Assembly (NCBI GenBank): GCA_019638935.1
Contig: JAHBSW010000025.1
Location: 1 to 33,723 of the forward strand
Length of the DNA: 33,723 nucleotides
Source of the DNA: Cryobacterium sp.
Lineage (GTDB): Bacteria > Actinomycetota > Actinomycetes > Actinomycetales > Microbacteriaceae
Direction of reading: 5' to 3'
Each line of letters starts with the position of its first letter. Position 1 is the first letter of the stretch. The notes below the pieces were generated by a model, which saw nothing but the letters and a program-made list of their open reading frames with translations, was not told where the DNA came from and ran no database searches. Of this stretch, positions 1-25,045 are shown one piece after another. The position numbers and the translations under genes are program-made.

Positions 1-1
1 C

Positions 2-3000
2 GGCACCTACGGGGCGCTGAACCGCTACACGCTGCGCCCCACCGGGCGCACGAACGAGGACGGCGAGGAGACCTTCGCCCGCATCGTGCCGACCGCGATC
101 CGCCTGCTGCGCTCCGATCCGTTCGGCCCCCTGGTGCTCGCACTCGAACAGTTCGATGACGAGGATCAGTCCGCATCGCCCGCTGCAATCATGAGCCACC
201 GCGTGGTGGTGCCGCGAGCCGAAGTACAAGGCGTAGACAGCCCCGCCGATGCCATCGCCGTCAGCCTCGACCGAACCGGCGGGATCGACCTCCCCCTCAT
301 CGCCGACCTGCTCGGCATGAGCGATCACGACGCCCGCGAGGCGCTGGGAAACCTCGTGTTCGCCGACCCGACGACCGACCAGCTCATCCACGCCCCCGAG
401 TACCTGTCCGGCGATGTGCGGGTCAAGCTCGAAGCCGCCCGCCTGCGCGCGGAGCAAGACCCGGAGTTCCAGATCAACGTGGACGCGCTGGCCGAGGCAC
501 TGCCCGCGCCACTCGGCATCCAGGACATCCACGCGAAGCTCGGTGCGGTATGGATCAGCGCCGACGTGCACGAACGGTTCCTGCGGAGCATCCTGCGCGC
601 CGAAGACGTGCGCGTCGAGAACCCGCTGCCGGGCATGTGGGAGATCCGCGGCGGACGGCAGGGCCTGCTCTCCACCTCGGAGTGGGGCACACCGCGCCGC
701 CCCGCGCCGGACATCGCCCAGGCCGTCATGGAGCAGCGGACGATGCTCGTCTACGACGAGGAGAAGGACATCGACGGCAAGGTGCGCCGCGTGCTCAACC
801 CCGTCGAAACCGCCGCCGCTCAGGAGAAGGCGGACGCACTCCAGGAGCGGTTCAGCGATTGGGTGTGGGAAGACCCGGCTCGCGCGCAGGCACTCGTAGA
901 CGAGTACAACCGGCGCTTCAACTCCATCGTGCTCCGCGACTACACCGACGCCGGGGCGTACTTGTCGCTGCCCGGCCTGGCGTCGAACTTCGAGCCACGC
1001 ACGCACCAGCGCGCTGCCGTCGCGCGCATGGTGTCCGAGCCCGCCGCCGGCCTGTTCCACGAGGTCGGTGCGGGCAAGACCGCGGAAATGATCTTGGGCG
1101 CGATGGAGATGCGCCGGATGGGGCTCATCAGCAAGCCCGTCGTAGTCGTGCCGAATCACATGCTCGAGCAGTTCGGGCGCGAGTGGCTCCAGATCTACCC
1201 GCGCGCCCGCGTGCTCGCGGCGTCGAGCCTCGACCTCACGGCAGACAAGCGGCGGCTGTTCGTCGCCCGCGCTGCCGCGAACGAGTGGGACGCGATCATC
1301 CTCACGCAGGGGGCGTTCGCCAAGATCCCGCTGCGCGCCGAGACGCAGCAGGAGTACATCCGCGGGCAGGTAGACGACGTGCGGCGAGTGCTGGGCGAGG
1401 CGACCGGCGAGCAGCGGATGAGCGTCAAGCGCATCCAGCGGAAGCTCCTGGCGATGGAGAACAAGCTCAAGGATCGGCTCGACTCCGACCGCGACCGCGG
1501 CGTCTGCTTCGAGGACACCGGCATTGATTACGTCATCGTCGACGAGATGCATATGTACAAGAATCTCGCCACCGAGTCGAACATCAGGGACGCGGCCATC
1601 GAGGGCTCGGATCGCGCGAGCGACCTGCACATGAAGCTCGAATACCTCCGCTCCGCGGGGCGCGAGCGGGTCGTGACCGCCGCGACCGCGACGCCCATCT
1701 CGAACTCGATCACCGAAACCTATGTCATGCAGCGATACCTGCGGCCCGACGTGCTGGAGTCGGCGGGTGTCGGCGCGTTCGATGCGTGGGCGGCAACGTT
1801 CGGCGAGCTGGTCACGCAGATGGAGATCTCGCCGACGGGCAGCACGTTCCGCATGAAGACCCGCTTCGCCCGGTTCCAGAACGGGCAGGAGCTGCTGCGG
1901 ATGTGGTCGGTGTTCGCCGACGTGAAGACCGCTGAAGACCTCGACCTGCCCGTGCCCGCGCTCGTGCAGCGCGACGACGGCAGCCGCGCGCCCTCCACCG
2001 TGCCGGTGCAGCCGACCGTCGAGCTGGAACAGTACGTCGCATCCCTCGCCGAGCGCGCCGAGAAGGTCGCCACCCGCCAGGTGCGGCCCGACGAAGACAA
2101 CATGCTCCTGATCGCCACCGACGGACGCAAGGCCGCGCTCGACATCCGCATGGTCATCTCCCGCGACCCGTCCGGGCCGAGCAAGGTCGACGTCGCCGCC
2201 GACGCGATCCACCGCATCTGGGAGCGCACCCGCGACAACGAGTACCTCGACACGGTGACCGGGCAACCCTCCACGGTGCGCGGGTCGCTCCAGCTCGTGT
2301 TCTCCGATATCGGCACCCCGAACCAGGACAGGTGGAACGCCTACGACGAGCTGCGGCAGCAGCTCGTGCAGCGCGGCATCCCCGCCGAGCAGGTCAGATA
2401 CATGCACGAGGCGAAGACCGACGTGGAGAAGGCCCGCCTGTTCGCCGCAGCCCGTGCCGGCCACGTCGCCGTGCTCCTCGGATCGACGGAGAAGATGGGT
2501 GTCGGCACGAACGTCCAGGCCCGCGCCATCGCGCTGCACCATCTGGACTGTCCGTGGCGGCCCTCCGACATCGCGCAGCGCGACGGTCGCATCATGCGGC
2601 AGGGCAACCAGAACGAGGAAGTGGCGATCGTCCGCTACGTCACCGAGCGTTCCTTCGACTCCTACATGTGGCAGACCGTCGAGCGGAAGGCCGCGTCGTT
2701 CGCGCAGCTCCTGCGCGGCAAGATCAACGCCCGAGAGATCGAGGAGATCGACACCTCCGCGTTGTCCGCAGCAGAGGCCAAGGCAATCGCCTCCGGCAAT
2801 CCGCTCCTGCTGGAGCACTCCGTCATCCTCAACGAGGTGAACCGGCTCCGCCGCCTCCAGCGCGCGCACGAGCGCAACGAGGACATGCTCGTCCACACCG
2901 GAAACCGCGCCCGGTCAGCCGCCGAGCGCGCCGCCGCGGACATTCGCGGGCTGGAAGCCGCTGCCCCGCGGATGATCGACACGAGCGGCGACAGGTTCCG

Positions 3001-3637
3001 CATCACGCTCGGCGCGCGCGACTACGACTCCCGCTCCGAAGCCGCCCACGCCCTCGCCGCATGGATGGGCGACTCCGGGCTGAAGTGGCTGCCGCGGTAC
3101 GGGCACAAGGACTTCGGGATCATCGGCCGCATCTCAGGCTTCGACATCCACGTCGAGGCCCGCTCCGGGCTCGCCGCCCTCGATGTGACCCTCTCCCTGC
3201 CCGAGGTGCCCCGCTCGGGATTCACGCTGCCGAAGGAGTCATTCCTTGAAGCCGGGCTCGGGCTCGTGCAGCGCATCGAGAACCGCGTCAGCGGCATCCC
3301 CTCCCTTCTCGACCAGGCCCGCGAAGACCTGGAAGAAGCCGAGCAGACCGTCGCCGACACCCAGCAGCGCCTCGGCCAGCCCTTCCGCCACGCACAGACC
3401 CTCGCCGACGCCGAGGAAGACCTCGCCCGCGTCGAGTCCCAGCTCGCCGCGATGCAGGACGAGCCCCGCCCCGAGCCTGACTCACTCGAGTCAGAGCGCG
3501 TCGAGCTAACCATCGAGGCTGTGCGCGGCTACCAGCCGAACCTGGGGTCGCGGGAGGGAGCCGTCACGGTGACGGTCGAACCGTTCGACTCCAGCGATCC
3601 GACGCGACAACCCCCGAGCAGTACGCCGTCCCTGTAG
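2..3637 (+). CDS. Large SNF2-like DEAD/DEAH helicase, C-terminal part (DarB / methylase-helicase class), 5' truncated by window
   Basis: The frame is open from base 2, with residues GTYGALNRYTLRPTGR before the first GTG (86), so the gene starts upstream and the GTG is not a real start. About 1,211 residues are visible. Helicase motifs are clear: Walker A (HEVGAGKT, near 1060-1085), a DEMH box (1541-1552), a motif III-like TATPISNS (about 1682-1710), and motifs V/VI with GVGTNVQA followed by QRDGRIMRQGNQ (about 2500-2615). A coiled-coil-rich tail follows. In the known family (COG4646-type proteins of plasmids, ICEs and phages, including P1 DarB) an adenine-methylase domain often precedes this helicase; that part is not visible. 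A role in protecting or processing transferred DNA is inferred. The C-terminus carries a motif shared with the DprA-like protein downstream (see 3503-3559). The gene ends 87 bp before the DprA-like start, with no other gene between. Confidence 0.85.
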   Translation, partial: GTYGALNRYTLRPTGRTNEDGEETFARIVPTAIRLLRSDPFGPLVLALEQFDDEDQSASPAAIMSHRVVVPRAEVQGVDSPADAIAVSLDRTGGIDLPLIADLLGMSDHDAREALGNLVFADPTTDQLIHAPEYLSGDVRVKLEAARLRAEQDPEFQINVDALAEALPAPLGIQDIHAKLGAVWISADVHERFLRSILRAEDVRVENPLPGMWEIRGGRQGLLSTSEWGTPRRPAPDIAQAVMEQRTMLVYDEEKDIDGKVRRVLNPVETAAAQEKADALQERFSDWVWEDPARAQALVDEYNRRFNSIVLRDYTDAGAYLSLPGLASNFEPRTHQRAAVARMVSEPAAGLFHEVGAGKTAEMILGAMEMRRMGLISKPVVVVPNHMLEQFGREWLQIYPRARVLAASSLDLTADKRRLFVARAAANEWDAIILTQGAFAKIPLRAETQQEYIRGQVDDVRRVLGEATGEQRMSVKRIQRKLLAMENKLKDRLDSDRDRGVCFEDTGIDYVIVDEMHMYKNLATESNIRDAAIEGSDRASDLHMKLEYLRSAGRERVVTAATATPISNSITETYVMQRYLRPDVLESAGVGAFDAWAATFGELVTQMEISPTGSTFRMKTRFARFQNGQELLRMWSVFADVKTAEDLDLPVPALVQRDDGSRAPSTVPVQPTVELEQYVASLAERAEKVATRQVRPDEDNMLLIATDGRKAALDIRMVISRDPSGPSKVDVAADAIHRIWERTRDNEYLDTVTGQPSTVRGSLQLVFSDIGTPNQDRWNAYDELRQQLVQRGIPAEQVRYMHEAKTDVEKARLFAAARAGHVAVLLGSTEKMGVGTNVQARAIALHHLDCPWRPSDIAQRDGRIMRQGNQNEEVAIVRYVTERSFDSYMWQTVERKAASFAQLLRGKINAREIEEIDTSALSAAEAKAIASGNPLLLEHSVILNEVNRLRRLQRAHERNEDMLVHTGNRARSAAERAAADIRGLEAAAPRMIDTSGDRFRITLGARDYDSRSEAAHALAAWMGDSGLKWLPRYGHKDFGIIGRISGFDIHVEARSGLAALDVTLSLPEVPRSGFTLPKESFLEAGLGLVQRIENRVSGIPSLLDQAREDLEEAEQTVADTQQRLGQPFRHAQTLADAEEDLARVESQLAAMQDEPRPEPDSLESERVELTIEAVRGYQPNLGSREGAVTVTVEPFDSSDPTRQPPSSTPSL
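3503..3559 (+). repeat. Shared C-terminal motif, copy 1 (in helicase)
   Basis: The segment encodes ELTIEAVRGYQPNLGSREG, 26 residues before the end of the helicase. Copy 2 lies near the end of the DprA-like protein (4682-4738). By my alignment 15 of 19 residues and 47 of 57 bases are identical, and similarity stops on both sides. Several differences are amino-acid changing, so this is not a very recent duplication. Confidence 0.85.
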
Positions 3638-3650
3638 CCGCCACTGCCGA

Positions 3651-3700
3651 GCCGCCTCCGGGCGGCACCACGGGTGCACCTCTCTCGTGAGGCCAGGTGC
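3651..3700 (+). other. Two consecutive hairpins between helicase and DprA-like gene
   Basis: The first stem is GCCGCC/GGCGGC with loop TCCG (3651-3666). The second is GCACCT/AGGTGC (3676-3681 with 3695-3700), with a nested CTC/GAG pair. The second hairpin ends about 9 bases before the ribosome binding site of the next gene. There is no T-tract, so the pair could be a weak terminator, an mRNA processing site or a translational control element. Function is inferred only from position. Confidence 0.35.
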
Positions 3701-3724
3701 CTGGACAGCGGAGAGGACGCGAAC

Positions 3725-4819
3725 ATGGAGACGATCGAATCGCTCACCACCAATGAGCGGAGCGCCAGGATCGCGCTCGCCATCGCCTTCGAGCCGGGCG
3801 AGGCCACCACCGCCGCGGTGATAGCCGCGGTCGGGGCCCAGGAGACACTTCGCCTCCTCACCTCGACCGAGCCTGTCCCCGGCGTCGATACGGAGGCTGC
3901 CGCGCTCTGGCGAGACCTCGCCGCTCCCCGGCTCAGGCCCCAGGCGTTCCAGCAGGTCATCGACGCAACCCAGCGTCACCGCCTGCACGTCTCGATCCCC
4001 GGCGATCCCGAGTGGCCCGAGGGCTTCGCCATCGGCGGCGTCACCCCGCCGCTGGCGCTGTGGGTGCTCGGTGAGGTCGACACCCTCCGAACCCCCGTCC
4101 AGCGGCTCGTCACGCTCACGGGATCTCGCGCCGCGTCGAGCTACGGCGAGTTCGTCGCCGCCGAGCTTGCGACCGGAGCCGCTGAGCGCGGCGGCATCGT
4201 CGTCGGTGGAGGCGCCTACGGCGTCGAGGCCGCCGCCCACCGGGGCGCGCTCAACGCGGGCGGTAAGACCATCGCCGTCCTCGCTGGCGGCCTGGACAGG
4301 CCCTACCCGGCGGGCAATCAGCAGCTGTTCGAGCGCATCGCCGCGAACGGCGCTCTGCTCAGCGAGATCCCGCCCGGATGCGCGCCGACCAGGCTGCGCT
4401 TCGTGCAGCGCGCACGGCTACTCGCCGCACTCTCGGACACGAGCGTCATCGTCGAGGCAGGCGTCCGCTCTGGCTCGCTCCTGGTCGCCGCTCGCGCCGC
4501 CACCTTCGGCCGCGATGTCGGGGCTGTGCCTGGCCCGATCACGAGCGCCACCAGCTCAGGCCCACACGAACTGCTGTGCAGCGGGACAGCGCGGATCGTC
4601 ACCGGAGCCCACGACATCCAGATGCCGGAACCCCCGGCCTCCGACGGCCTGAACGCACCCGGCGTCCAGACAAGCTGCACCGAGCTGACCGTCGAGACCG
4701 TGCGCACCTACGAGCCGAACCTGGGCTCGCGAGAGGGCACGGCACGGGAAGACGACTCCCCCGCCTTCGTCGCCGCGACGCCCGCGGCCACGCTGTCGGG
4801 CAACGCCCCGCGGCTGTAG
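3725..4819 (+). CDS. dprA: DprA/Smf-like DNA-processing protein encoded by the mobile element
   Basis: The start ATG at 3725 is chosen because GGAGAGGA lies 7 bases upstream; in-frame codons upstream to 3674 lack such a site. The 364-residue product has the DprA/Smf Rossmann-fold signature: TGSRAASSYG, then GGGAYGVEAAAHRGAL, AVLAGGLDRPYPAGN, LLSEIPPG and RFVQRARLLAALSD, then SGSLLVAARAA and a VPGP segment. In competent bacteria DprA binds ssDNA and loads RecA; in mobile elements such a protein could protect or convert incoming single strands, which is inference. The N-terminal helical part resembles actinobacterial DprA. The last roughly 45 residues are extra and carry the motif shared with the upstream helicase. 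It is probably cotranscribed with the helicase. Its stop faces the PIN gene stop with one base between. The chromosomal dprA would be expected elsewhere, so this is likely an element-borne paralogue. Confidence 0.85.
   Translation: METIESLTTNERSARIALAIAFEPGEATTAAVIAAVGAQETLRLLTSTEPVPGVDTEAAALWRDLAAPRLRPQAFQQVIDATQRHRLHVSIPGDPEWPEGFAIGGVTPPLALWVLGEVDTLRTPVQRLVTLTGSRAASSYGEFVAAELATGAAERGGIVVGGGAYGVEAAAHRGALNAGGKTIAVLAGGLDRPYPAGNQQLFERIAANGALLSEIPPGCAPTRLRFVQRARLLAALSDTSVIVEAGVRSGSLLVAARAATFGRDVGAVPGPITSATSSGPHELLCSGTARIVTGAHDIQMPEPPASDGLNAPGVQTSCTELTVETVRTYEPNLGSREGTAREDDSPAFVAATPAATLSGNAPRL
4682..4738 (+). repeat. Shared C-terminal motif, copy 2 (in DprA-like protein)
   Basis: The segment encodes ELTVETVRTYEPNLGSREG, 26 residues before the stop of the DprA-like protein. 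It matches copy 1 in the helicase at the same distance from the C-terminus. The invariant core is PNLGSREG, preceded by ELT.E.VR.Y. Confidence 0.85.
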
Positions 4820-4820
4820 C

Positions 4821-5501
4821 TCAGCGGCACTCCGGGCCGAGCCCGTCGATGACCGTGGCCGGATCCGCGACGATCCGCTCGCAGCGCAGGCAGCGCGTGC
4901 CGCGGAAGATCACCTCCGGCTCGCCGTGGATGCCGCGCTCGGGCTCGACCTCGTAGAGGTCAGCGTGTGTGGCGAATAGGCGCGGGTGGTTCTTGGCGAT
5001 GGCGGCATGGAACTGCGCGGGCGTCGTCGGTGGACTCACCTGGAGTTCCACGAATCGCCGGATGACAAAGGTGTACGCCGCGCGCGTCAGACGCTCCGCA
5101 AGGAACAGGTCGGGGTTCACCGCCGAGATGCCGACGCTGGCAAGATCGGCCAGCCCGTAGTCGTCCACATCCTCGGTGACGATGAATCGCGCCCCGGCCG
5201 CTTCCGCGTCGGCAAGGAGTTGGCGGTCCTTGGCGTCCGTGGCCTCGAACCGCCTCGCCACGTTCCCGGTAGGGGTCAACTCGCCGCCGTAGCGCCGCCG
5301 CAAGTCCACGGGCCGGGTCGCGTTCGGGCGCATGTGGCGGGCAGCCTCCGCCTCGGCGGTCGCGCTCCATCCCACGACGAACCCGCTGCGGCTCGCGCCG
5401 ACCATCAACAGGGTGCGTGTGACGGGCTTGGCTACGACATTCGCATCGAGGAAGACGAAGGTCACGTCACCGGGTGCCGAAAAGGTCTTCCCGGAGGTCA
5501 T
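4821..5501 (-). CDS. PIN-domain protein (putative toxin RNase) with C-terminal DUF6011-like zinc knuckle
   Basis: The 226-residue product begins with a PIN-type strand and acid, VFLDANV (Asp19). It continues with DAKDRQLLADA and IVTEDVDDYG, the acidic positions expected for the metal site of PIN ribonucleases. The C-terminal end reads TRCLRCERIVADP....GLGPECR. This C-x2-C...GxGPxC pattern resembles the small DUF6011 zinc-binding module and is not a usual part of VapC-type toxins. The ATG at 5501 overlaps the upstream HTH gene by 35 bp. A GTG at 5465, four bases before the end of that gene's stop region and just before the PIN strand, is an equally plausible start. Overlap with a small DNA-binding protein suggests a toxin-antitoxin unit. 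Substrate RNA is unknown. Confidence 0.7.
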   Translation of the reverse strand: MTSGKTFSAPGDVTFVFLDANVVAKPVTRTLLMVGASRSGFVVGWSATAEAEAARHMRPNATRPVDLRRRYGGELTPTGNVARRFEATDAKDRQLLADAEAAGARFIVTEDVDDYGLADLASVGISAVNPDLFLAERLTRAAYTFVIRRFVELQVSPPTTPAQFHAAIAKNHPRLFATHADLYEVEPERGIHGEPEVIFRGTRCLRCERIVADPATVIDGLGPECR

Positions 5502-5838
5502 CGCGCACCAGCTCGATCACGTCGCCCATCGCCTGGTCCCACCACCGCTGGTATTCCTCGTAGGGGATGCGGTTGCGGTTGCCGACCTTGACGGCGTGAA
5601 TCTCCCCCGCCTTGATCTTGCGAGAGATAGTGGAGCGCGACACCCCGGTCAGCGATGCGACCTGCTCCGGGGTGAGCATCCGCTGCTTCGCCGTCAACGT
5701 GACGGTCTCGCCCTCGGAGGCCGCGCGCTGGACGTACTCCGCCACCTTCTCCAACCAGGCGGGGAGCTCCGAAGTCTCCCGCGCGCTGGCGCGCACGTCC
5801 TCGGGGTCGATCGTCAAGGGTGCCGGGGTCATGCTCAC
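5467..5838 (-). CDS. HTH/excisionase-family protein, probable antitoxin of the PIN protein
   Basis: The 123-residue protein has a helix-turn-helix of the MerR/excisionase (HTH_17) type in its second half: LTPEQVASLTGVSRSTISRK, followed by the typical GEIHAVKVGNRNRIPYEEY wing. The start is GTG at 5838, supported by GGAGG (5845-5849) six bases upstream; an ATG two codons later is the alternative. The C-terminal helix (WDQAMGDVIELVRDDLRED) would be the natural toxin-binding part. The gene overlaps the PIN gene and lies 69 bp after the integrase stop on the same strand. An inverted repeat directly upstream of the ribosome binding site could be its own operator. HTH proteins of this kind paired with PIN proteins are common in Actinobacteria. 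The pairing here is inferred from overlap, not from a named family match. Confidence 0.7.
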   Translation of the reverse strand: MSMTPAPLTIDPEDVRASARETSELPAWLEKVAEYVQRAASEGETVTLTAKQRMLTPEQVASLTGVSRSTISRKIKAGEIHAVKVGNRNRIPYEEYQRWWDQAMGDVIELVRDDLREDLFGTR

Positions 5839-5852
5839 ATCCTACCTCCACC

Positions 5853-5880
5853 TGCACAGTCAGCGAAGCGTATCTGTGCA
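5853..5880 (-). promoter_or_regulatory. Inverted repeat upstream of the HTH/PIN pair, candidate operator
   Basis: A perfect 7-bp inverted repeat, TGCACAG / CTGTGCA (5853-5859 and 5874-5880), lies just upstream of the GGAGG site of the HTH gene. The two arms are 21 bp apart centre to centre, about two helical turns, which suits a dimeric HTH protein. Autoregulation is inferred. As RNA it could also form a hairpin. Confidence 0.4.
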
Positions 5881-5907
5881 TCATCAGTTCTCCCTCTTCG
5901 CGGCAGT

Positions 5908-7230
5908 TCATGCGTCGATGCCCGCGAACACCTCGTCGAGCGCATCGGCCGCGACTTCGACGATGAGATCAGGGCGCTTCGCGTAGTGCCCCTCGGTGAT
6001 CGCCGCGTCACTGTGCCCGAGCAGATCGCGTGCGACCTCGACGCCGGCCGTGTCCGATACCGCCGCAGCGACGGCCTTGCGGAGGCTACGGAAGGTGAGG
6101 TGCTCGGCATCGACCCCGATAGCCAGCAGCTCCGGCTCGAACTCGCGGCGGAACATCCGCAACAGTTCGCCGACCGCGCTGGGATCGCGCGGACGGCCGC
6201 GCTCGGTAGTGAACAGGACGTCGTCTGGATTCCGTTCGGGATCGGGAACGTGGCTCGCCACGAGTTCACTCAGAACCTTGGCTGCGAACTTCGGAACGCG
6301 AACCCAACGCTTCTGCCGCTCCGCCTTGGGCGAGTCCTGACGGAACAGACCGCGGGACTTCGTGCGAACCATCGTCCCGCCCACCCAGACGAGTGCCTCC
6401 ATCGTCAGGCTTCCGTCCGGCTGCTCCACCGCCTCGAACCGCACGTCCTGGAACCGGATCGCAATCGGCTCCGCGGTCCTCTCGGAGGTGCCGAGCGTGA
6501 TGAGGATGTAGTCGGCGAGCAGCTTGTAGTTGGGCCGACGGCCCACCGGATAGCGCGTCCGATGCCGCTCCGGCCACACGTCGCGGATGAGATGGAGGAC
6601 GTACTTTACCTGCACCGCGTCGAGTTCGAAGTACACCGTGTCCGGCTCATCCGCTCGCCTGGTCGCACGGATCGGGTTCGCCACAACGACCGCTCCATAC
6701 CGCGTCTGCTGGATCGACCCGGCAGCCGAGAAGTGCCCTTGCTGGATCGCCCAGTCGAACATGAGCGACATCACGTTCCGCACCTTGTTCGCGGTCGTCA
6801 CCGACTTCTCTCGTGCGATGTCCATGAGCAGACCGTCGGCGCGGTCGGCGGTGATGTCGGCAATGGGGATGGCACCGGCACGCGGGATGACATGCGCTCG
6901 GACCACCGATGCGTAGCCATCGACCGTCTGCTCGCGGCGCTGGCGCAGCACCCGTGGATCGTCGTCGTGATACGCCGTCTTCAGCCACGTCGTCGCCAGC
7001 TCTGCGACGGTCATGAACTGCGTTCGTCGCGCCAGGACTCGACCGACAGCGACATCAGCCGCCTCCTGCAACGCGGCCAGCGCCTCGGCCTCGGTCGCTC
7101 CGCTGCCGCTCGGACGGCGCTCATGCCCGTTGCCGTCATAGACCCGTCCTCGCGCGATGACGAGACCGCTCGGCTCGACGGTGTAGGTCACCTTGCCGAG
7201 TTCGCCGAGTGCGCGCTTCGGCCGCGCCAT
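5908..7230 (-). CDS. int: Tyrosine recombinase (phage/ICE-type integrase)
   Basis: This is a 440-residue site-specific recombinase with an N-terminal arm-binding region, a SAM-like core-binding domain (about 70-165) and a C-terminal catalytic domain. Catalytic residues can be placed: Arg251 in TSERTAEPIAIR, Arg384 in RSLRKAV, His406 in LLGHSDAAIT and nucleophile Tyr416 in GHYAKRP. The conserved His of the HxxR box is an Arg here (RSLR, residue 381), and the position after the second Arg is Lys, as in many actinobacterial integrases. The start ATG overlaps the stop of the upstream excisionase-like gene (TGATG), indicating translational coupling. It should catalyse integration and excision of the element, with the attachment site expected just beyond xis (7455-7759). 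Confidence 0.9.
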   Translation of the reverse strand: MARPKRALGELGKVTYTVEPSGLVIARGRVYDGNGHERRPSGSGATEAEALAALQEAADVAVGRVLARRTQFMTVAELATTWLKTAYHDDDPRVLRQRREQTVDGYASVVRAHVIPRAGAIPIADITADRADGLLMDIAREKSVTTANKVRNVMSLMFDWAIQQGHFSAAGSIQQTRYGAVVVANPIRATRRADEPDTVYFELDAVQVKYVLHLIRDVWPERHRTRYPVGRRPNYKLLADYILITLGTSERTAEPIAIRFQDVRFEAVEQPDGSLTMEALVWVGGTMVRTKSRGLFRQDSPKAERQKRWVRVPKFAAKVLSELVASHVPDPERNPDDVLFTTERGRPRDPSAVGELLRMFRREFEPELLAIGVDAEHLTFRSLRKAVAAAVSDTAGVEVARDLLGHSDAAITEGHYAKRPDLIVEVAADALDEVFAGIDA

Positions 7231-7454
7231 CAGTCGCCCGCCCTGTCCGTCGGGGCCACGATCCGCCCGGCGATGAACGCTTCGACATCCTCATCGCGGT
7301 AGCGGACGTTGTGCGACGAGAGTGCGACGAACGGCAATCCGAGACCTCGGCTGCGCGCACGCTCGGTCCGCCAGTCAGCGAGCGTCCTGATCGGGATGCC
7401 CGTGTACTCTGCAAGCTCCTGCGGAGTCCAGAGGCGGGGGCGGTCGTCGCTCAT
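7230..7454 (-). CDS. xis: Excisionase-like small HTH protein
   Basis: The 74-residue protein MSDDRPRLWTPQELAEYTG... contains an HTH_17-type fold: LWTPQELAEYTGIPIRTLADWR, then a basic loop and VRYRDEDVEAFI. This matches small excisionases or recombination directionality factors. ATG at 7454 is preferred over an in-frame extension to 7574 because the family starts a few residues before the HTH; no strong ribosome binding site is visible. The stop overlaps the integrase start, so xis and int form a coupled pair. Excisionase function is inferred from fold, size and position; it could also regulate the integrase operon. Confidence 0.7.
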   Translation of the reverse strand: MSDDRPRLWTPQELAEYTGIPIRTLADWRTERARSRGLGLPFVALSSHNVRYRDEDVEAFIAGRIVAPTDRAGD

Positions 7455-7581
7455 ACCAATGAGGTAGGCGGCACCACCCGTCGTCCTCCAGCGAACCCCG
7501 TAGGACGGCCAAGAATCCGCAAAACGGACAGGTTCTCGGACAGCGGCAGCAGCGACCCACCCCATGCTTAACATCGCACTT

Positions 7582-7612
7582 CCCTGTATTCACAGGGGAG
7601 TACGATCCTGTG
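7582..7612. repeat. Palindrome CCCTGT-attc-ACAGGG with an extra CCTGTG half-site
   Basis: Arms of 6 bp (7582-7587 and 7592-7597) flank a 4-bp centre. CACAGG (7591-7596) and CCTGTG (7607-7612) form a second inverted pair 16 bp apart. The site lies 128 bp upstream of xis. A role as a protein-binding site for Xis, Int or a repressor is inferred. Confidence 0.45.
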
Positions 7613-7683
7613 GGACACCCTCCGGTTCTCAGATCCTCAAGCCGAGCTCTACTACGGGGTATAGCTCAAGGCTTTGAACCCAT

Positions 7684-7739
7684 CGAACGACGCCACATTG
7701 CTGTCGCTGCGAAGGCAGAGCGCAATGTGGCGTCGTTCG
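7684..7739 (-). terminator. Long perfect inverted repeat after glnE, probable terminator
   Basis: Arms cgaacgacgccacattgc (7684-7701) and its exact reverse complement (7722-7739) are 18 bp each. The 20-base loop contains a further CTGC-GAAG-GCAG stem. The repeat starts 21 bases after the glnE stop, the position of a transcription terminator. There is no T-tract, which is common in high-GC Actinobacteria. As it also sits at the element boundary, an alternative is that it belongs to the attachment region. Confidence 0.5.
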
Positions 7740-7759
7740 GGGTCGAGAGCGTCTGAGGC

Positions 7760-10663
7760 TCAGTCGAAGAACAGGCGCTCGAAGACCCGCCGGGTCTGGC
7801 GCGTCTGGCGCAGATACGAGTCCTCAAAGGCGCCGGCCGACCCTCGCGGGTAGCCGAGCAGTCGGGCGATTCCCTCGAGCTGCGCTCGGTCGCCGGGGAG
7901 CACGTCGGTCGTCTTGCCCGTCCACAGCATGAGCGCCGAGCGGGCACGGGCGACGAACTGCCAGGTATCGCGCAGCAGCGCGGCGTCACTGATCGGAATA
8001 AGCTTCGCCCCCGCCGCCGCATCGAGCGCGTCGAGAGTCGAGGTGGTGCGCAGCTCGCCGACCGTCGACGCATGCGCGAGCTGCACCAGCTGCACGAGCC
8101 ACTCGATGTCGCTGAGCGAGCCGCGCCCGAGCTTGAGGTGTCTGCTCGGGTCCGCTCCCTGCGGCAGACGCTCCGCCTCGACGCGCGCCTTGATGCGCTT
8201 GACCTCGCGAAGCTCACGGTCGCCGATCTGCGCGGGGTAGCGCACCTCGTCGGCCAATGCCTCGAAGTCACGACCCAACACTTCGTCGCCCGCGGCGTAG
8301 CGAGCTCGCAGCAGGGCCTGCGCCTCCCAGGTGAGCGACCAGCGCTCGTAGTAGGCGCGATAGGACTCGAGCGACCTCACGATCGCACCGTTCTTGCCCT
8401 CGGGGCGCAGCCCCTCGTCCAGGTCGAAGCGAATGCGGATGTCGTCGGTGAGCCTGCGCAGCGCGAGCACGATCTGCTCGGCCCGCGACTGTGCCGCGGC
8501 AGGCTCGGCCGTGATGGCTCGGTAGACGTACATGACATCGGCATCCGACCCGAAGCCGAGCTCGCGGCCGCCGTAGCGGCCCATCGCGATAACGGCGAAC
8601 TCGATGCCGTCATCGGCGCCGTCAACCCCGGTGCCGCGCGCGAGCGCGAGCGCACTGGTGATCAGCGCCTCGGTGACGTCCGTGAGGGCGTGACCGAGCT
8701 GCTGGACGTCACGCAGCTGCAGGATGCCTGCGATCGCCAGCCTCAGGATCTCGCGCCGACGAATCCCCCTGAGCGCCGCAGCGGCATCGTCGATGGTGTC
8801 GGTGTGCCGGCCGATGATCGCGGCGCCCTCCTCGAGAAGGGACTCGAGGGATCGCGGCGCCAGCTCCTCGTCATCCGACAGCCAGGCGACTGCCTCGGGA
8901 GTGTTCAGGAACAGGTCGCCGATGAAGCGCGAGCCCGAGAGCAGCCGCATGAGGCGGTGCGCGGTGCCGGACGAATCGCGCAGCATCCTGAGGTACCAGT
9001 GCGACTCGCCGAGTGTCTCGGAGAGCCTGCGGAACGTCAGCAGGCCGTGGTCGGGATCGGCACCCTCCGCGAGCCACTGCAGCAGAATCGGCAGCAGGTT
9101 GCGCTGGATGGTGGCGCGTCGCGACAGGCCCGAGGTGAGCGCCGCAATGTGCCGCAGGGCCCCCTCGGGGTCGACGAAACCGACGCCGGCAAGACGAGCG
9201 ACGGCCTGCTCGCTCGTGATCTGGAAGTCCTCGCCGGGGAGTGAAGCGACCGCGGACAGCAGCGGACGGTAGAAGAGCCGCTCGTGCAGGCCGCGCACGC
9301 GCACGCGCGTCGCCTGCCACAGCTCGACGAGCTCACCCGATCCGCCGGCCTGACCGCTTGCACGAGCAAGTACCCGCAGGCGCTCGTCGTCGCGCGGCAT
9401 GAGGTGGGAGCGAACAAGGTTGGCGAGCTGAATGCGATGCTCCAGCAGGCGCAGGAACCGATAGTCGCGCGCGAACGACGCGGCCTCATCGCGTCCGATG
9501 TAACCGCCGGCCGCGAGAGCGCCCAGCGCACCGAGGGTGTCGCGGAGCCGAACCGACTCGTCTGTCTGCCCGTGCACGAGCTGCAGCAGCTGGATCGTGA
9601 ACTCCACGTCTCGCAGCCCGCCCAGGCCGAGCTTGAGCTGCACGTCTCGCTCCTCGGCGGGGATGTGCTCGGTGACCCGCTCTCGCATGCGCTGAACCGA
9701 GTCGACGAAGTTCTCCCGCTTGGCGCTCGACCACACGAACGGTGTGATCGCGTCGACGTAGCGCAGGCCCAGCTCGAGGTCACCCGCGAGGGGTCGAGCC
9801 TTGAGCAGTGCCTGAAACTCCCACGACTGCGCCCACCGTTCGTAGTAGGCGACGTGTGAGGCGAGTGTGCGCACGAGCGCGCCGTCCGCGCCCTCGGGTC
9901 GCAGGTTCGCATCGAGTTCCCACAGCGCGGGCTCGACCGAATTTCCGTTGACGATGTGCGACACCGCTTTGGCGAGCTCGGCGCCGATCACCACGGCACG
10001 GTCGACGGATGTCTCATCGACGGCGTCGACGACATAGATGACGTCGACATCGCTGATGTAGTTGAGTTCGCGCGCGCCCGCCTTGCCCATGCCGATGATG
10101 GCGAGACGCATGTCGGCGACTTCGGTCGCGGGGAATCGCAGTGATCCGCGCGCGAGGGTCAGTGCCGCATCCAGCGTTGCACCGGCGAGGTCAGCAAGGG
10201 CCGCGGCGACCGGTTCGACTGCCTCGAGCGGATCAGCACTGGCGAGATCCCATGCGGCGATGCGCACAAGCTCGCGCCGGTACCGCACCCGCACATCGTC
10301 GACGGAGACGGATGCCGCCAGGCGCGTGCCGAGTTCCGCAGCAGTGGGCAGCGCCGCAAGCGGTTCCCGCAGCACGGCGAGTTGCTCGGGGTGGCGCTCG
10401 AAGAACTCCCCCAGTGCGGCAGAGGCACCAAGAATGCGCACCAGGTGAGCCGCCGCATCCTGGCCCGCAAGCAACTCATCGACCGCGGCGCTGGCGCGCT
10501 CGCGCAGACGCACGATGAGCCGCAGCGCCTGGTCGGGATCGGCCGCGAGGGCGAACAGCGTGCCCAGCGAGGCGGGCAGTGTCGCGAGCCTTTCGGTCGC
10601 GACCGCGGTGTCGGTGAATCCGAGCCGCGCGAGTTCCGTGCGGGACGTGTGGTTTCTCGACAT
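7760..10663 (-). CDS. glnE: Bifunctional glutamine synthetase adenylyltransferase / adenylyl-removing enzyme
   Basis: GlnE adds AMP to, and removes it from, a tyrosine of glutamine synthetase GlnA1 in response to nitrogen status. The 967-residue length fits the family. Two nucleotidyltransferase domains are visible, each with G(M)G(K/R)xGxRELxxxSDxD: SDVDVIY near residues 204-210 (removase half) and SDADVMYVY near residue 705 (transferase half). Each is followed by helical regulatory parts (EFQALLKARP and EAQALLRARY). The ATG at 10663 is preferred to upstream in-frame codons, which lie inside glnA2 and encode no conserved sequence. It follows glnA2 at 58 bp on the same strand, as in M. tuberculosis (Rv2222c-Rv2221c). 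The normal substrate gene glnA1, which neighbours glnE in mycobacteria, is not seen; the mobile element occupies that side. Confidence 0.97.
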   Translation of the reverse strand: MSRNHTSRTELARLGFTDTAVATERLATLPASLGTLFALAADPDQALRLIVRLRERASAAVDELLAGQDAAAHLVRILGASAALGEFFERHPEQLAVLREPLAALPTAAELGTRLAASVSVDDVRVRYRRELVRIAAWDLASADPLEAVEPVAAALADLAGATLDAALTLARGSLRFPATEVADMRLAIIGMGKAGARELNYISDVDVIYVVDAVDETSVDRAVVIGAELAKAVSHIVNGNSVEPALWELDANLRPEGADGALVRTLASHVAYYERWAQSWEFQALLKARPLAGDLELGLRYVDAITPFVWSSAKRENFVDSVQRMRERVTEHIPAEERDVQLKLGLGGLRDVEFTIQLLQLVHGQTDESVRLRDTLGALGALAAGGYIGRDEAASFARDYRFLRLLEHRIQLANLVRSHLMPRDDERLRVLARASGQAGGSGELVELWQATRVRVRGLHERLFYRPLLSAVASLPGEDFQITSEQAVARLAGVGFVDPEGALRHIAALTSGLSRRATIQRNLLPILLQWLAEGADPDHGLLTFRRLSETLGESHWYLRMLRDSSGTAHRLMRLLSGSRFIGDLFLNTPEAVAWLSDDEELAPRSLESLLEEGAAIIGRHTDTIDDAAAALRGIRRREILRLAIAGILQLRDVQQLGHALTDVTEALITSALALARGTGVDGADDGIEFAVIAMGRYGGRELGFGSDADVMYVYRAITAEPAAAQSRAEQIVLALRRLTDDIRIRFDLDEGLRPEGKNGAIVRSLESYRAYYERWSLTWEAQALLRARYAAGDEVLGRDFEALADEVRYPAQIGDRELREVKRIKARVEAERLPQGADPSRHLKLGRGSLSDIEWLVQLVQLAHASTVGELRTTSTLDALDAAAGAKLIPISDAALLRDTWQFVARARSALMLWTGKTTDVLPGDRAQLEGIARLLGYPRGSAGAFEDSYLRQTRQTRRVFERLFFD

Positions 10664-10680
10664 CGGCTGCAACGACCCCT

Positions 10681-10710
10681 GCTCGCTCGTGTGCCCGCTC
10701 GCTCGTGTGC
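10681..10710. repeat. Tandem 14-bp direct repeat between glnA2 and glnE
   Basis: GCTCGCTCGTGTGC occurs at 10681-10694 and again at 10697-10710, with a 2-bp spacer, inside the 58-bp gap between glnA2 stop and glnE start. It is probably a slippage duplication. It may vary between strains; no function is evident. Confidence 0.6.
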
Positions 10711-10721
10711 TCTGCGAGGCG

Positions 10722-12062
10722 CTAGAGGATCCCCAGGTTGCGCTGGAGTTCGAACGGCGTGACCTGGTTGCGATATTCGGCCCACTCGCTCCGCTTGTTG
10801 AGCAGCACGTAGTTGAACACCTGCTCGCCGAGGGTCTCGGCGACGAGCTCCGACTCCTCCATGAGCCGAACGGCATCGCCGAGGCTCGACGGAAGGGCGT
10901 TGTAGCCGAGTGCGCGACGCTCGCCATCCGTCAACAGCCAGACGTTGTCCTCAGCCTCCGGCGGCAGCTCGTATCCCTCCTCAACGCCCTTGAGTCCGGC
11001 GGCGAGCATGAGGGCGAACGCGAGGTAGGGGTTCGCGGCGGAGTCGAGCGCGCGATATTCGATGCGCGAACTCTGGCCCTTATTGGGCTTGTACAGGGGC
11101 ACGCGAACCAGAGCGGAGCGGTTGTTGTGACCCCAGCAGACGAAGCTCGGCGCCTCTCCCCCACCCCAGAGGCGCTTGTACGAGTTCACGAACTGGTTCG
11201 TGACGGCGGTGATCTCCGGGGCGTGCTTGAGCAGCCCGGCGATGAACCGCCTGCCCACGGCGGACAGCTGGTACTGCCCACCCGCCTCGTAGAACGCGTT
11301 CGTGTCGCCCTCGAAGAGCGAAAGGTGCGTGTGCATGCCCGAACCGGGGTGGTCGGAGAAGGGCTTGGGCATGAAGGTCGCGTAGACGCCCTCCTCGATC
11401 GCGACCTCCTTGACGACGGTGCGGAACGTCATGATGTTGTCCGCCATGGTGAGTGCGTCGGCGTAGCGCAGGTCGATCTCGTTCTGCCCCGGGCCGCCCT
11501 CGTGGTGGCTGAACTCGACCGAGATGCCGAGGTCTTCGAGCATCCGCACCGAGCGACGACGGAAGTCGTGCGCGGTGCCGCCCGGAACATTGTCGAAGTA
11601 GCCCGCGGTGTCGACGGGAACAGGCTGGCCGCTCTCGTCGAGCGCGGAGCTGCGCATCAGGTAGAACTCGATCTCGGGGTGCGTGTAGAACGTAAAACCG
11701 CGGTCCGCCGCTTTGCCGAGCGCGCGCCGCAGCACGTTACGGGGATCGGCCATGGCGGGTTCACCGTCGGGTGTCTCGATGTCGCAGAACATGCGCGCGG
11801 TGGGCTCGACCTCGCCACGCCACGGCAGGGTCTGGAACGTCGTCGGGTCGGGTCGCAGGAGCACATCGGCCTCGTAGGCGCGAGTGAGCCCCTCGATCGC
11901 AGAGCCGTCGATTCCCACCCCCTCGGCGAAGGCGCCCTCGACCTCGGCGGGGGCGATGGCGACCGACTTGAGCGAACCGATGACGTCGGTGAACCACAGC
12001 CGGATGAACTTGACCCCGCGCTCCTCGATCGAGCGCAGAACGAAGTCTTGTTGCTTATCCAT
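10722..12062 (-). CDS. glnA2: Glutamine synthetase type I, GlnA2 (GSI-alpha, not adenylylatable)
   Basis: It is an ATP-dependent glutamate-ammonia ligase. The 446 residues contain the GSI hallmarks IGSLKSVAI, VGIDGSAIEG, the EFSHHEGGPGQNEID metal/glutamate site, and the ATP-site region GSGMHTHLSL with NSYKRL...EAPSFVCWG. Length and position beside glnE match actinobacterial GlnA2. At the place where GSI-beta enzymes have the adenylylation tyrosine (NLYDLPPEE), this protein reads ELPPEAEDNVWLLTDGE and has no tyrosine, so GlnE should not modify it. The ATG at 12062 has a GAGGGAG ribosome binding site directly upstream. It leads a probable glnA2-glnE operon. In Streptomyces and mycobacteria some GlnA2-like enzymes act in polyamine or D-glutamine metabolism, so the physiological substrate is not certain. 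Confidence 0.93.
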   Translation of the reverse strand: MDKQQDFVLRSIEERGVKFIRLWFTDVIGSLKSVAIAPAEVEGAFAEGVGIDGSAIEGLTRAYEADVLLRPDPTTFQTLPWRGEVEPTARMFCDIETPDGEPAMADPRNVLRRALGKAADRGFTFYTHPEIEFYLMRSSALDESGQPVPVDTAGYFDNVPGGTAHDFRRRSVRMLEDLGISVEFSHHEGGPGQNEIDLRYADALTMADNIMTFRTVVKEVAIEEGVYATFMPKPFSDHPGSGMHTHLSLFEGDTNAFYEAGGQYQLSAVGRRFIAGLLKHAPEITAVTNQFVNSYKRLWGGGEAPSFVCWGHNNRSALVRVPLYKPNKGQSSRIEYRALDSAANPYLAFALMLAAGLKGVEEGYELPPEAEDNVWLLTDGERRALGYNALPSSLGDAVRLMEESELVAETLGEQVFNYVLLNKRSEWAEYRNQVTPFELQRNLGIL

Positions 12063-12097
12063 GGCTCCCTCTTTACCAGCGGTGTGCTGCCGTTCTT

Positions 12098-12103
12098 AGG
12101 CTA
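12098..12103 (-). promoter_or_regulatory. Possible -10 element of glnA2
   Basis: On the minus strand TAGCCT fits the actinobacterial TAnnnT -10 pattern and would give a transcript start near 12091, leaving a leader of roughly 28 bases that contains the GAGGGAG site. No convincing -35 is visible. Confidence 0.3.
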
Positions 12104-12122
12104 CTGGGTCCACCCGCGCAGC

Positions 12123-13685
<1,563 letters not shown>

Positions 13686-18322: not shown

Positions 18323-19150
18323 TCACTGCACGATTGCGAAGTCCCAGGGGTCGGTTCTGAGCTCGCTCACCGTCACCGTAGCACCGGGGAGCGCCTCGCT
18401 GAGCTGTGCCGCGGCGGTCTCGAGCCAGAGCCACTCGCTCGCCCAGTGGGAGATGTCGATGAGCGCGGGGCCGCCGCCGATTCGGACGTTCTCCCGCGCC
18501 TCACTCGCGGGGTGGTGGCGCAGGTCGGAGGTGATGTAGACGTCCGCGGCGGCGACCGCAGGCTCGCCGAGCAGGCTGTCGCCCGCTCCCCCGCACAGCG
18601 CGACGGTCTGCACGGGCTGGTCGTACTCTCCCGCCACGCGAATGCCACTCGCCGTCGCCGGAAGCACGTCGCCCAGTGCGCGTGCCAAGCGGCCGAGTGT
18701 GGTGGGCGTGGTGAGGGTTCCCACTCGTCCCAGCCCTCGAGAGGGCGACTCGCCCTCGACGATCGGACGAAGGTTCTCGAGCCCCAGCCGGGCGGCGATC
18801 ACCGCCGAGGTGCCTGTCTCGACGACGTCGGCGTTCGTGTGGGCGGCGAGGAGCGCGCATCCTGCCCTGATGAGCCGCGCGATCATCGCACCCTTGTAGC
18901 GGTCCTCGGCGACCGTGGTGACGCCTCGGAGCAGCAGGGGGTGATGGGTCAGCAGCAGATTCGCACCGATCTCGATCGCCTCGTCCACGGTCGCGGCAAC
19001 GGCGTCGACGGCGAGGTGGATGCGGCTGAGGGCAGCCGCGGGATCACCCGAGACGAGACCCGTGGAGTCCCACTCGGAGGCACCGCTGAGCGGCCACAGC
19101 GATTCGGCGGCCGCGAGTGCGTCAGCGAGGGTGTGCTGGGGCTTCGCCAT
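18323..19150 (-). CDS. Nif3-like dinuclear metal centre hexameric protein
   Basis: The 275-residue protein belongs to the Nif3/DUF34 family (GTP cyclohydrolase I type 2 in old annotations, YbgI-like). Metal-ligand motifs are visible: LLLTHHPLLLRG (His pair), AAHTNADVV (Asp) and the C-terminal DISHWASEWLWL (His and Glu). EWDSTGLVSGDP near the N-terminus matches the family's W.N.GL..G. Members form hexameric toroids with two metal ions per subunit; their cellular role is unsettled. The gene overlaps the permease gene upstream by 29 bp and precedes the zinc-ribbon-like gene, the same order as in mycobacteria (Rv2230c-Rv2229c-Rv2228c). Confidence 0.9.
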   Translation of the reverse strand: MAKPQHTLADALAAAESLWPLSGASEWDSTGLVSGDPAAALSRIHLAVDAVAATVDEAIEIGANLLLTHHPLLLRGVTTVAEDRYKGAMIARLIRAGCALLAAHTNADVVETGTSAVIAARLGLENLRPIVEGESPSRGLGRVGTLTTPTTLGRLARALGDVLPATASGIRVAGEYDQPVQTVALCGGAGDSLLGEPAVAAADVYITSDLRHHPASEARENVRIGGGPALIDISHWASEWLWLETAAAQLSEALPGATVTVSELRTDPWDFAIVQ

Positions 19151-21992: not shown

Positions 21993-21999
21993 GCCAGAA

Positions 22000-22005
22000 A
22001 TACTA
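22000..22005 (-). promoter_or_regulatory. -10 element of the permease operon, near-leaderless
   Basis: TAGTAT on the minus strand is separated from the permease ATG by seven bases, predicting a transcript starting at or one base before the start codon. No Shine-Dalgarno sequence is present. Confidence 0.5.
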
Positions 22006-22072
22006 CGACGACCGCCGAGAGTACCCGGCACGGCGTGCCGACAATCGGCTTCGACCGCCGTGAAGGTTCACG

Positions 22073-22145
22073 TGGGGCCTACCGGGATCGAACCGATGAC
22101 ATCTACGGTGTAAACGTAGCGCTCTACCAGCTGAGCTAAAGCCCC
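22073..22145 (-). tRNA. tRNA-Val (anticodon UAC)
   Basis: The 73-nt gene folds as a standard cloverleaf: acceptor GGGGCTT / AGGCCCC (one G-U), D-arm GCTC/GAGC, anticodon stem CTACG/CGTAG with loop TTTACAC (anticodon TAC), and T-arm ATCGG TTCGATC CCGGT. The discriminator is A and CCA is not encoded. It reads the valine codons GUA and GUG. Confidence 0.97.
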
Positions 22146-22226
22146 GCATCTCAAAGCGAGAAGCAGCCCCTATCGTACGGCACGCGCCCTGTGCCCGGAA
22201 CGCGCGAGCAGACCTCGACGGTCCAA

Positions 22227-22232
22227 ACTAGA
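22227..22232 (+). promoter_or_regulatory. Possible -10 element of aceE
   Basis: TAGACT matches the hexamer used upstream of panB and rnpB and would give a start near 22239 and an 83-base leader before aceE. The leader contains the palindrome CGTCGACG. No -35 is visible. Confidence 0.45.
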
Positions 22233-22321
22233 CTCGAATCGCGCCGTCGACGACGAATCGGCCACACCAAGGTCGGGCATCCGTCGGCGTGAGAGAACTC
22301 CCATCAGGAAAAGAGGTCAGT

Positions 22322-25045
<2,724 letters not shown>

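Follow-up and report, generated by a model that had tools for sequence, protein, structure and literature searches.

Shared endings in proteins of an actinobacterial mobile element: a helicase-derived tail on a DprA-like protein and a terminal leucine as candidate export signal

Introduction

Why do two neighbouring proteins with unrelated main domains carry nearly the same sequence shortly before their C-termini? The question is raised by a stretch of DNA of 33,723 bases, here referred to as the window, in which a helicase and a DprA-like protein share a motif of 19 residues. A preliminary description had taken this motif as a hint of a common partner, such as a machinery that would deliver both proteins together with DNA during conjugation, with a recombined duplication without function as null explanation. 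By comparison with related elements, we have investigated where the motif originates, how widely it occurs and whether the endings of other element proteins share features that would be compatible with recognition.

Results

Two copies of a motif in proteins with unrelated domains

The forward strand of the window encodes the C-terminal part of an SNF2-type helicase (86–3637), which is cut at its N-terminus since the window starts at the end of a contig and which in its full-length form, found in a second genome of the same genus (G003), comprises 1,644 residues. It is followed on the same strand by a DprA-like gene (3725–4819), encoding 364 residues from an ATG at 3725 defined by our gene-calling script, with the longest open frame starting from a GTG at 3674. 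Downstream of this gene, a reading frame on the reverse strand (4821–5501) weakly matches the RSP_2648 PIN-domain family below its cut-off. A further helicase fragment of 92% identity is located at another contig end of the same genome (G000:C59:3-845). In Pfam, the helicase is defined by the domains SNF2-rel_dom and Helicase_C and the DprA-like protein by DNA_processg_A (E 8.8e-55, 185.6 bits compared to a cut-off of 29.6), with no domain common to both and a match to LDcluster4 below its cut-off. The main domains are thus indeed unrelated, as initially described, and a common structural domain behind the motif was rejected.

The sequence ELT(I/V)E.VR.Y.PNLGSREG is found at 3503–3559 in the helicase and at 4682–4738 in the DprA-like protein, the two copies agreeing in 47 of 57 bases and in 15 of 19 residues. 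Its presence was confirmed by a self-comparison of positions 1–12000 of the window with blastn, which recovered the 57-bp pair at 84.2% identity (E 1.4e-9), and the resemblance is far above chance. Outside the motif, nine blocks of 30 bases of the same pair match at only 6–13 positions each. Among 7,046 pairs of non-homologous proteins from 45 loci, the helicase and the DprA of G003 obtained the highest score for similarity of their C-terminal tails (81), followed by pairs scoring 66, 54, 52 and 52. The motif was said to be located 26 residues before both stops, which is accurate for DprA, where the remaining tail (4739–4819, including the stop) ends with GNAPRL, whereas in the helicase 25 residues (3560–3637, including the stop) lead to a terminal PSSTPSL. 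Since synonymous positions within the motif vary, its conservation as a site at the level of DNA is not favoured.

The motif belongs to one helicase subfamily

To determine how widely the motif is distributed, genome_contigs (84,980 species represented by one genome each) and IMG/VR were scanned with a degenerate nucleotide pattern that encodes LT[VI]E[AT]VR.[YH].P.LG, which matched 28 times in the former and once in the latter. Upon translation, these 29 matches were assigned to 25 helicase C-termini and four DprAs (L166, L168, L178 and L180), with no third protein bearing the motif in either collection. Wherever a stop is visible, 28–30 residues separate the pattern from the end of the protein, one contig ending within the tail. 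The four DprAs are identical to their counterpart in the window over the 93 to 381 residues compared. At L166 the helicase is also identical (451 residues), and this locus thus probably originates from the same or a very closely related strain.

A search with the full-length helicase, for which the motif was not used, provided a complementary view, as all four relatives with 66–70% identity contain LTVEAVR or LTVETVR, and the motif is lacking in all 15 tails examined among helicases with at most 54% identity. Three additional motif-bearing helicases (G039, G048 and G027) were found via the motif itself, and our tabulation of its conservation is biased because its rows were chosen with the pattern. 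A profile built from the two copies showed strong matches solely in helicases and the described DprA when applied to eight genomes from the genus and to 398 from the family, with weaker matches such as one in G145 (E 0.0075), and a tblastn search with a 27-residue tail against 72,556 plasmids gave no match, although such short queries are insensitive. The motif is thus restricted to helicases of one subfamily and to DprA in a single lineage. On the basis of the pattern scans, its role as a general tag was rejected, and the proposal that it would mark diverse element proteins for co-delivery gains no support from it.

An insert-free relative reveals the probable origin of the shared motif

The element of the window is also contained on a long contig of G003, with 98% identity over window positions 1–7663. 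Just beyond the end of this homology, we found an inverted repeat at 7684–7739 (58 columns, 83% identity), and in G003 the left end of the element yielded nothing beyond chance-like repeats of at most 15 bases. The origin of the motif pair is illustrated by the related element of G039, which contains no dprA in the compared stretch. In a blastn comparison, positions 1–3558 of the window align with positions 6249–9806 of the respective locus (L019, 95% identity) and positions 4681–7660 with its positions 9750–12719 (85%). Both alignments overlap by 57 bases on the G039 side, which implies that the motif is present there once and that the 1,179 bp corresponding to 3560–4738 of the window are absent.

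In G039, the helicase ends in the same tail that closes DprA in the window, and in 10 of the 25 motif-bearing helicases the tail matches the final 50 residues of the window DprA at 54–64%. In a comparison against codon shuffles, the DprA tail beyond the motif shares 57–65 of 81 bases with helicases of this tail type (z 7.3–11.0 in all eight cases tried) and shows no such relation to three helicases with other tails (z −0.4 to 1.2). The initial statement that the tails outside the motif are unlike thus holds for the pair in the window, whereas the tails of related helicases are homologous to the entire DprA tail. Conversely, the tail of the window helicase is only marginally similar to those of the same eight helicases (z 1.7–4.0) and would be either new or strongly diverged, with a strongly diverged old tail being compatible with these values, for which reason our first reading of a wholly new tail was abandoned. 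The body of dprA adjoins 4 of the 25 motif-bearing helicases, all of this one lineage. A search of the flanks of the remaining 21, covering 29 to 7,904 bases (at least 1,014 in 20 of the 21), did not reveal it. In addition, the motif is absent from the tails of 28 other element DprAs, as judged by eye.

Since the insert-free arrangement is found in G039 and since helicase tails are homologous to the tail of DprA, it is almost certain that the motif originates from the tail with which one helicase subfamily ends and that in a single lineage dprA became joined to a duplicate of the helicase 3′ end. A recombination event in or beside the 57-bp motif would have placed dprA at this end, with DprA acquiring about 45 terminal codons of the helicase, comprising motif and tail, in frame with its own coding region, and with the helicase retaining the motif and ending in the new or strongly diverged tail described above. 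With respect to the origin of the motif, the null explanation of a recombined duplication has thus proven correct, as G039 is free of the insert and the copy in DprA corresponds to the ancestral end of the helicase gene.

The region between the helicase and the integrase serves as a cargo site of varying content. In the place of dprA, 3′ of the helicase, different cargo is found in G048 (L020) and Galbitalea (G036, L021), whose genes we take to resemble an AbiE pair, and Galbitalea also keeps a decayed remnant of dprA that is devoid of the motif. In a metagenome-assembled genome of Microbacterium sp. BWSM_13 (L168, L174), dprA is split over two contigs and interrupted by other DNA.

A leucine closes the tails of several element proteins

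For a broader comparison of C-terminal tails, we have collected 40 loci of up to 20 kb around element-type dprA genes, picked from the best-matching places, and 20 stretches around relatives of the helicase. With four plasmids and the element of G003 added, the clustering covered 1,339 proteins, which were called with our own script, whose simple procedure affects the assignment of starts, whereas the tails depend on stops only. Although 156 of the 1,339 proteins terminate with leucine, the residue is concentrated in certain families, whose counts were obtained after removal of similar tails and are not independent since family members are related. A final leucine is present in 21 of 29 dissimilar tails of element DprAs, in 10 of 13 of g30 (a small protein of the transfer operon, beside VirB4), in 9 of 13 of the MobF relaxase (PF08751) and in 4 of 6 of an ArdC-like protein (PF08401, PF06114). 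In the transfer machinery, it is found in 1 of 16 VirB4 and none of 18 VirD4 proteins, and it closes none of 20 chromosomal DprAs selected from the dprA search. The helicase (7 of 20) and the single-stranded DNA-binding protein SSB (3 of 23) fit this rule poorly, and upon correction for 40 families the excess in the ArdC-like protein (p 2.4e-3) and the helicase (p 6.3e-3) would not stand.

Preceding the leucine, serine at position −2, arginine at −3, glycine at −4 and proline at −5 are enriched, which approximates an ending G-R-S-L-COOH, and 33 of 40 proteins terminating with [GPS][RP]x[LI] belong to DprA, MobF, g30 or the helicase. The codons used for the leucine (six kinds) and the stops vary. 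As it would by itself not be surprising to find leucine as the commonest last residue, we have set the conservation at position −1 against that of the remaining tail in 31 families, each represented by five or more dissimilar tails. In DprA, g30, MobF and the ArdC-like protein, leucine occupies position −1 at a frequency of 0.67–0.77, whereas positions −6 to −20 match at 0.09–0.14. Among families with at least six tails, these four are the only ones that reach 0.6 at −1, in each case with leucine, and four families of five tails also attain this value, with serine in three cases and arginine in one. The last 30 residues carry a mean charge of +1.3 to +1.8 in DprA, g30 and MobF and of +0.2 in the ArdC-like protein and the helicase; since tails of some control families are positively charged as well, this feature is not specific, and the disorder of the tails was assessed by composition only.

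Two of the families were investigated in the larger set of 398 genomes. From 50 tails of ArdC-like proteins, read at 30 loci and 20 stretches covering part of the places listed, 34 of the 43 belonging to close relatives end with leucine, or 29 of 37 if six members of the first set are left out, and none of the seven tails of distant relatives does. For MobF relaxases, 46 of 50 selected loci yielded a tail, with 33 of these ending with leucine; exclusion of eight members of the first set leaves 25 of 38, and in 35 of these 38 the last residue is either L, I, V, M or F. Because the sequences are related, binomial values for these added tails are only indicative. Leucine is not the final residue in any of three relaxases encoded on annotated plasmids from Arthrobacter and Mycetocola. 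For the G003 element itself, no MobF relaxase was found on its contig, with the matches in this genome located on other contigs; as the Pfam scan covered 10 of the 29 called proteins of this element in addition to those of the window, a relaxase of another type is possible.

Shared endings on a Microbacterium plasmid and in DUF6349 proteins

On the plasmid NZ_CP049254.1 of Microbacterium amylolyticum (L098), four proteins share a C-terminal TGPVT, namely a homologue of the helicase (2602–7782, forward strand), a protein of 320 residues with unknown function (12621–13583, forward), a zeta toxin (18850–19881, forward) and a Fic protein (21898–22482, reverse), the latter with an adjoining VbhA. 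The sequence GP(S/V/N)L either closes the protein or is followed by one further residue in the helicase homologue, the zeta toxin, the Fic protein and an AAA protein of 708 residues (43479–45605, reverse). This is tail sharing of the kind that the preliminary description had in mind, in another element. Separately, DUF6349 proteins encoded beside SSB and helicase genes (L141, L142, L143 and L154) terminate with GRSLTD, GRALSQ, GPDLSR and GRVLGD, which corresponds to the same ending extended by two residues, with the family assigned by Pfam for the member at L143.

Discussion

Our comparison provides two results of different nature. The fusion of dprA to a helicase end, its direction and the narrow distribution of the motif, together with the leucine common to the tails of several families, can be regarded as established at the level of sequence comparison. 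For the function of these tails, we favour, at somewhat less than even confidence, their role as C-terminal export signals for type IV secretion, with the relevant feature residing in the closing leucine rather than in the motif of 19 residues. The idea of a common partner would thus gain indirect support from the terminal leucine and not from the shared motif. In such a mechanism, exchangeable C-terminal tails would bring element proteins to a VirD4-type coupling protein, and the relaxase, DprA, the ArdC-like protein and perhaps the helicase would enter the recipient together with single-stranded DNA. What these proteins would have in common is a disordered tail with leucine as its last residue, and the window DprA would have exchanged its own tail for that of the helicase, a tail that would remain functional in its new context. 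That both proteins of the window end with leucine fits such a signal, while being weak evidence on its own.

The assignment as export signal is based on the fact that families ending with leucine, such as the relaxase and ArdC, are expected in the recipient. Traits anticipated for type IV signals include their presence on the relaxase, as found in 33 of 46 MobF tails, and their absence from machinery and chromosomal paralogues, as found for VirB4 (1 of 16), VirD4 (0 of 18) and chromosomal DprA (0 of 20). Published work describes the transfer of ArdC of the plasmid pSa (PMC5512222) and the translocation of a plasmid SSB by an F-type system (PMC8406263), although in our samples SSB mostly lacks the final leucine. 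Among the known type IV signals are C-terminal stretches in which basic or hydrophobic residues abound, and the acquisition of signals by recombination with relaxase genes is raised as a possibility (PMC11288057). The endings described here resemble these signals in their C-terminal location and their expected occurrence on relaxases and co-transferred proteins and may share their basic or hydrophobic character, but differ in the conserved last leucine, in tails that otherwise cannot be aligned and in their occurrence on elements of Microbacteriaceae. Among the titles and opening lines of abstracts retrieved from an open-access library, none was recognised as describing C-terminal export signals in actinobacterial conjugation.

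Parallels to other systems concern the individual components. As with polyvalent methylase-helicases of the DarB type (PMC5512222), the SNF2-type helicase belongs to an element that also codes for VirD4 and VirB4-like proteins, whereas the tail containing LTVEAVR is limited to one subfamily. With members of the DprA family (DNA_processg_A, TIGR00732), the window protein shares a clear core domain, whereas it bears a helicase-derived tail and with 190.1 bits scores just below the NCBIfam cut-off of 191.15 for TIGR00732. In the Fic/VbhA interbacterial effector, the signal is reportedly a folded BID domain, whereas in the case described here it would be a short tail. What both would have in common is a C-terminal signal that is passed between proteins, as reported for the terminal reassortment of effectors (PMC5675462), and a Fic protein with an adjoining VbhA is encoded on NZ_CP049254.1.

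Other explanations have to be weighed against an export signal. It is conceivable, though in our view rather unlikely, that the reading frame of dprA simply continues into the former end of the helicase gene, and that the resulting tail is tolerated as a functionless relic and remains idle for DprA. Such a relic would be consistent with the restriction of the fusion to a single recent lineage with DprAs that are identical over the compared parts, with the absence of the motif in all 28 other element DprAs and in the Galbitalea remnant, and with the interruption of dprA in BWSM_13. However, the tail is intact in the window, in G003 and in M. ginsengisoli, and it still ends with leucine, as do most element DprAs. 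Since the lineage is recent and single and its copies are identical, they give no measure of selection on the captured tail.

A last residue that is conserved on tails that otherwise cannot be aligned points to the recognition of a free C-terminus, which could equally be the task of a protease, a chaperone or a PDZ-like domain, a possibility that we consider improbable in light of the fact that the relaxase, the ArdC-like protein and DprA all are DNA-handling proteins of transfer elements and that proteins of the machinery lack the leucine. Even less probable appears a role of the 19-residue motif, apart from the leucine, as binding site for one partner that DprA would have gained with the tail. 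Although the occurrence of LTVEAVR or LTVETVR in the four helicases of 66–70% identity identified by the full-length search and the variation of synonymous codons within the motif would both agree with such a site, no third protein among the 29 matches contains it, nor does any of the 15 tails of helicases with 54% identity or less.

The export signal, in which we place more confidence, can be extended to a general scheme, which we propose with greater reservation. Actinobacterial conjugative elements may mark proteins destined for co-delivery with a minimal C-terminal code, a disordered tail that ends in about G-R-S-L-COOH. Either the coupling protein or an adaptor would read this code, and the tails would be passed between genes by recombination, with the window as a case of passage from helicase to DprA. 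Irrespective of this scheme, the window offers a clear example of a protein that gained the tail of another, for which the insert-free state is known in relatives. If the proposal is true, a simple ending on relaxase, antirestriction protein and DprA would make the proteins transferred by actinobacterial elements predictable from their sequence and the protein side of conjugation would become testable in these elements.
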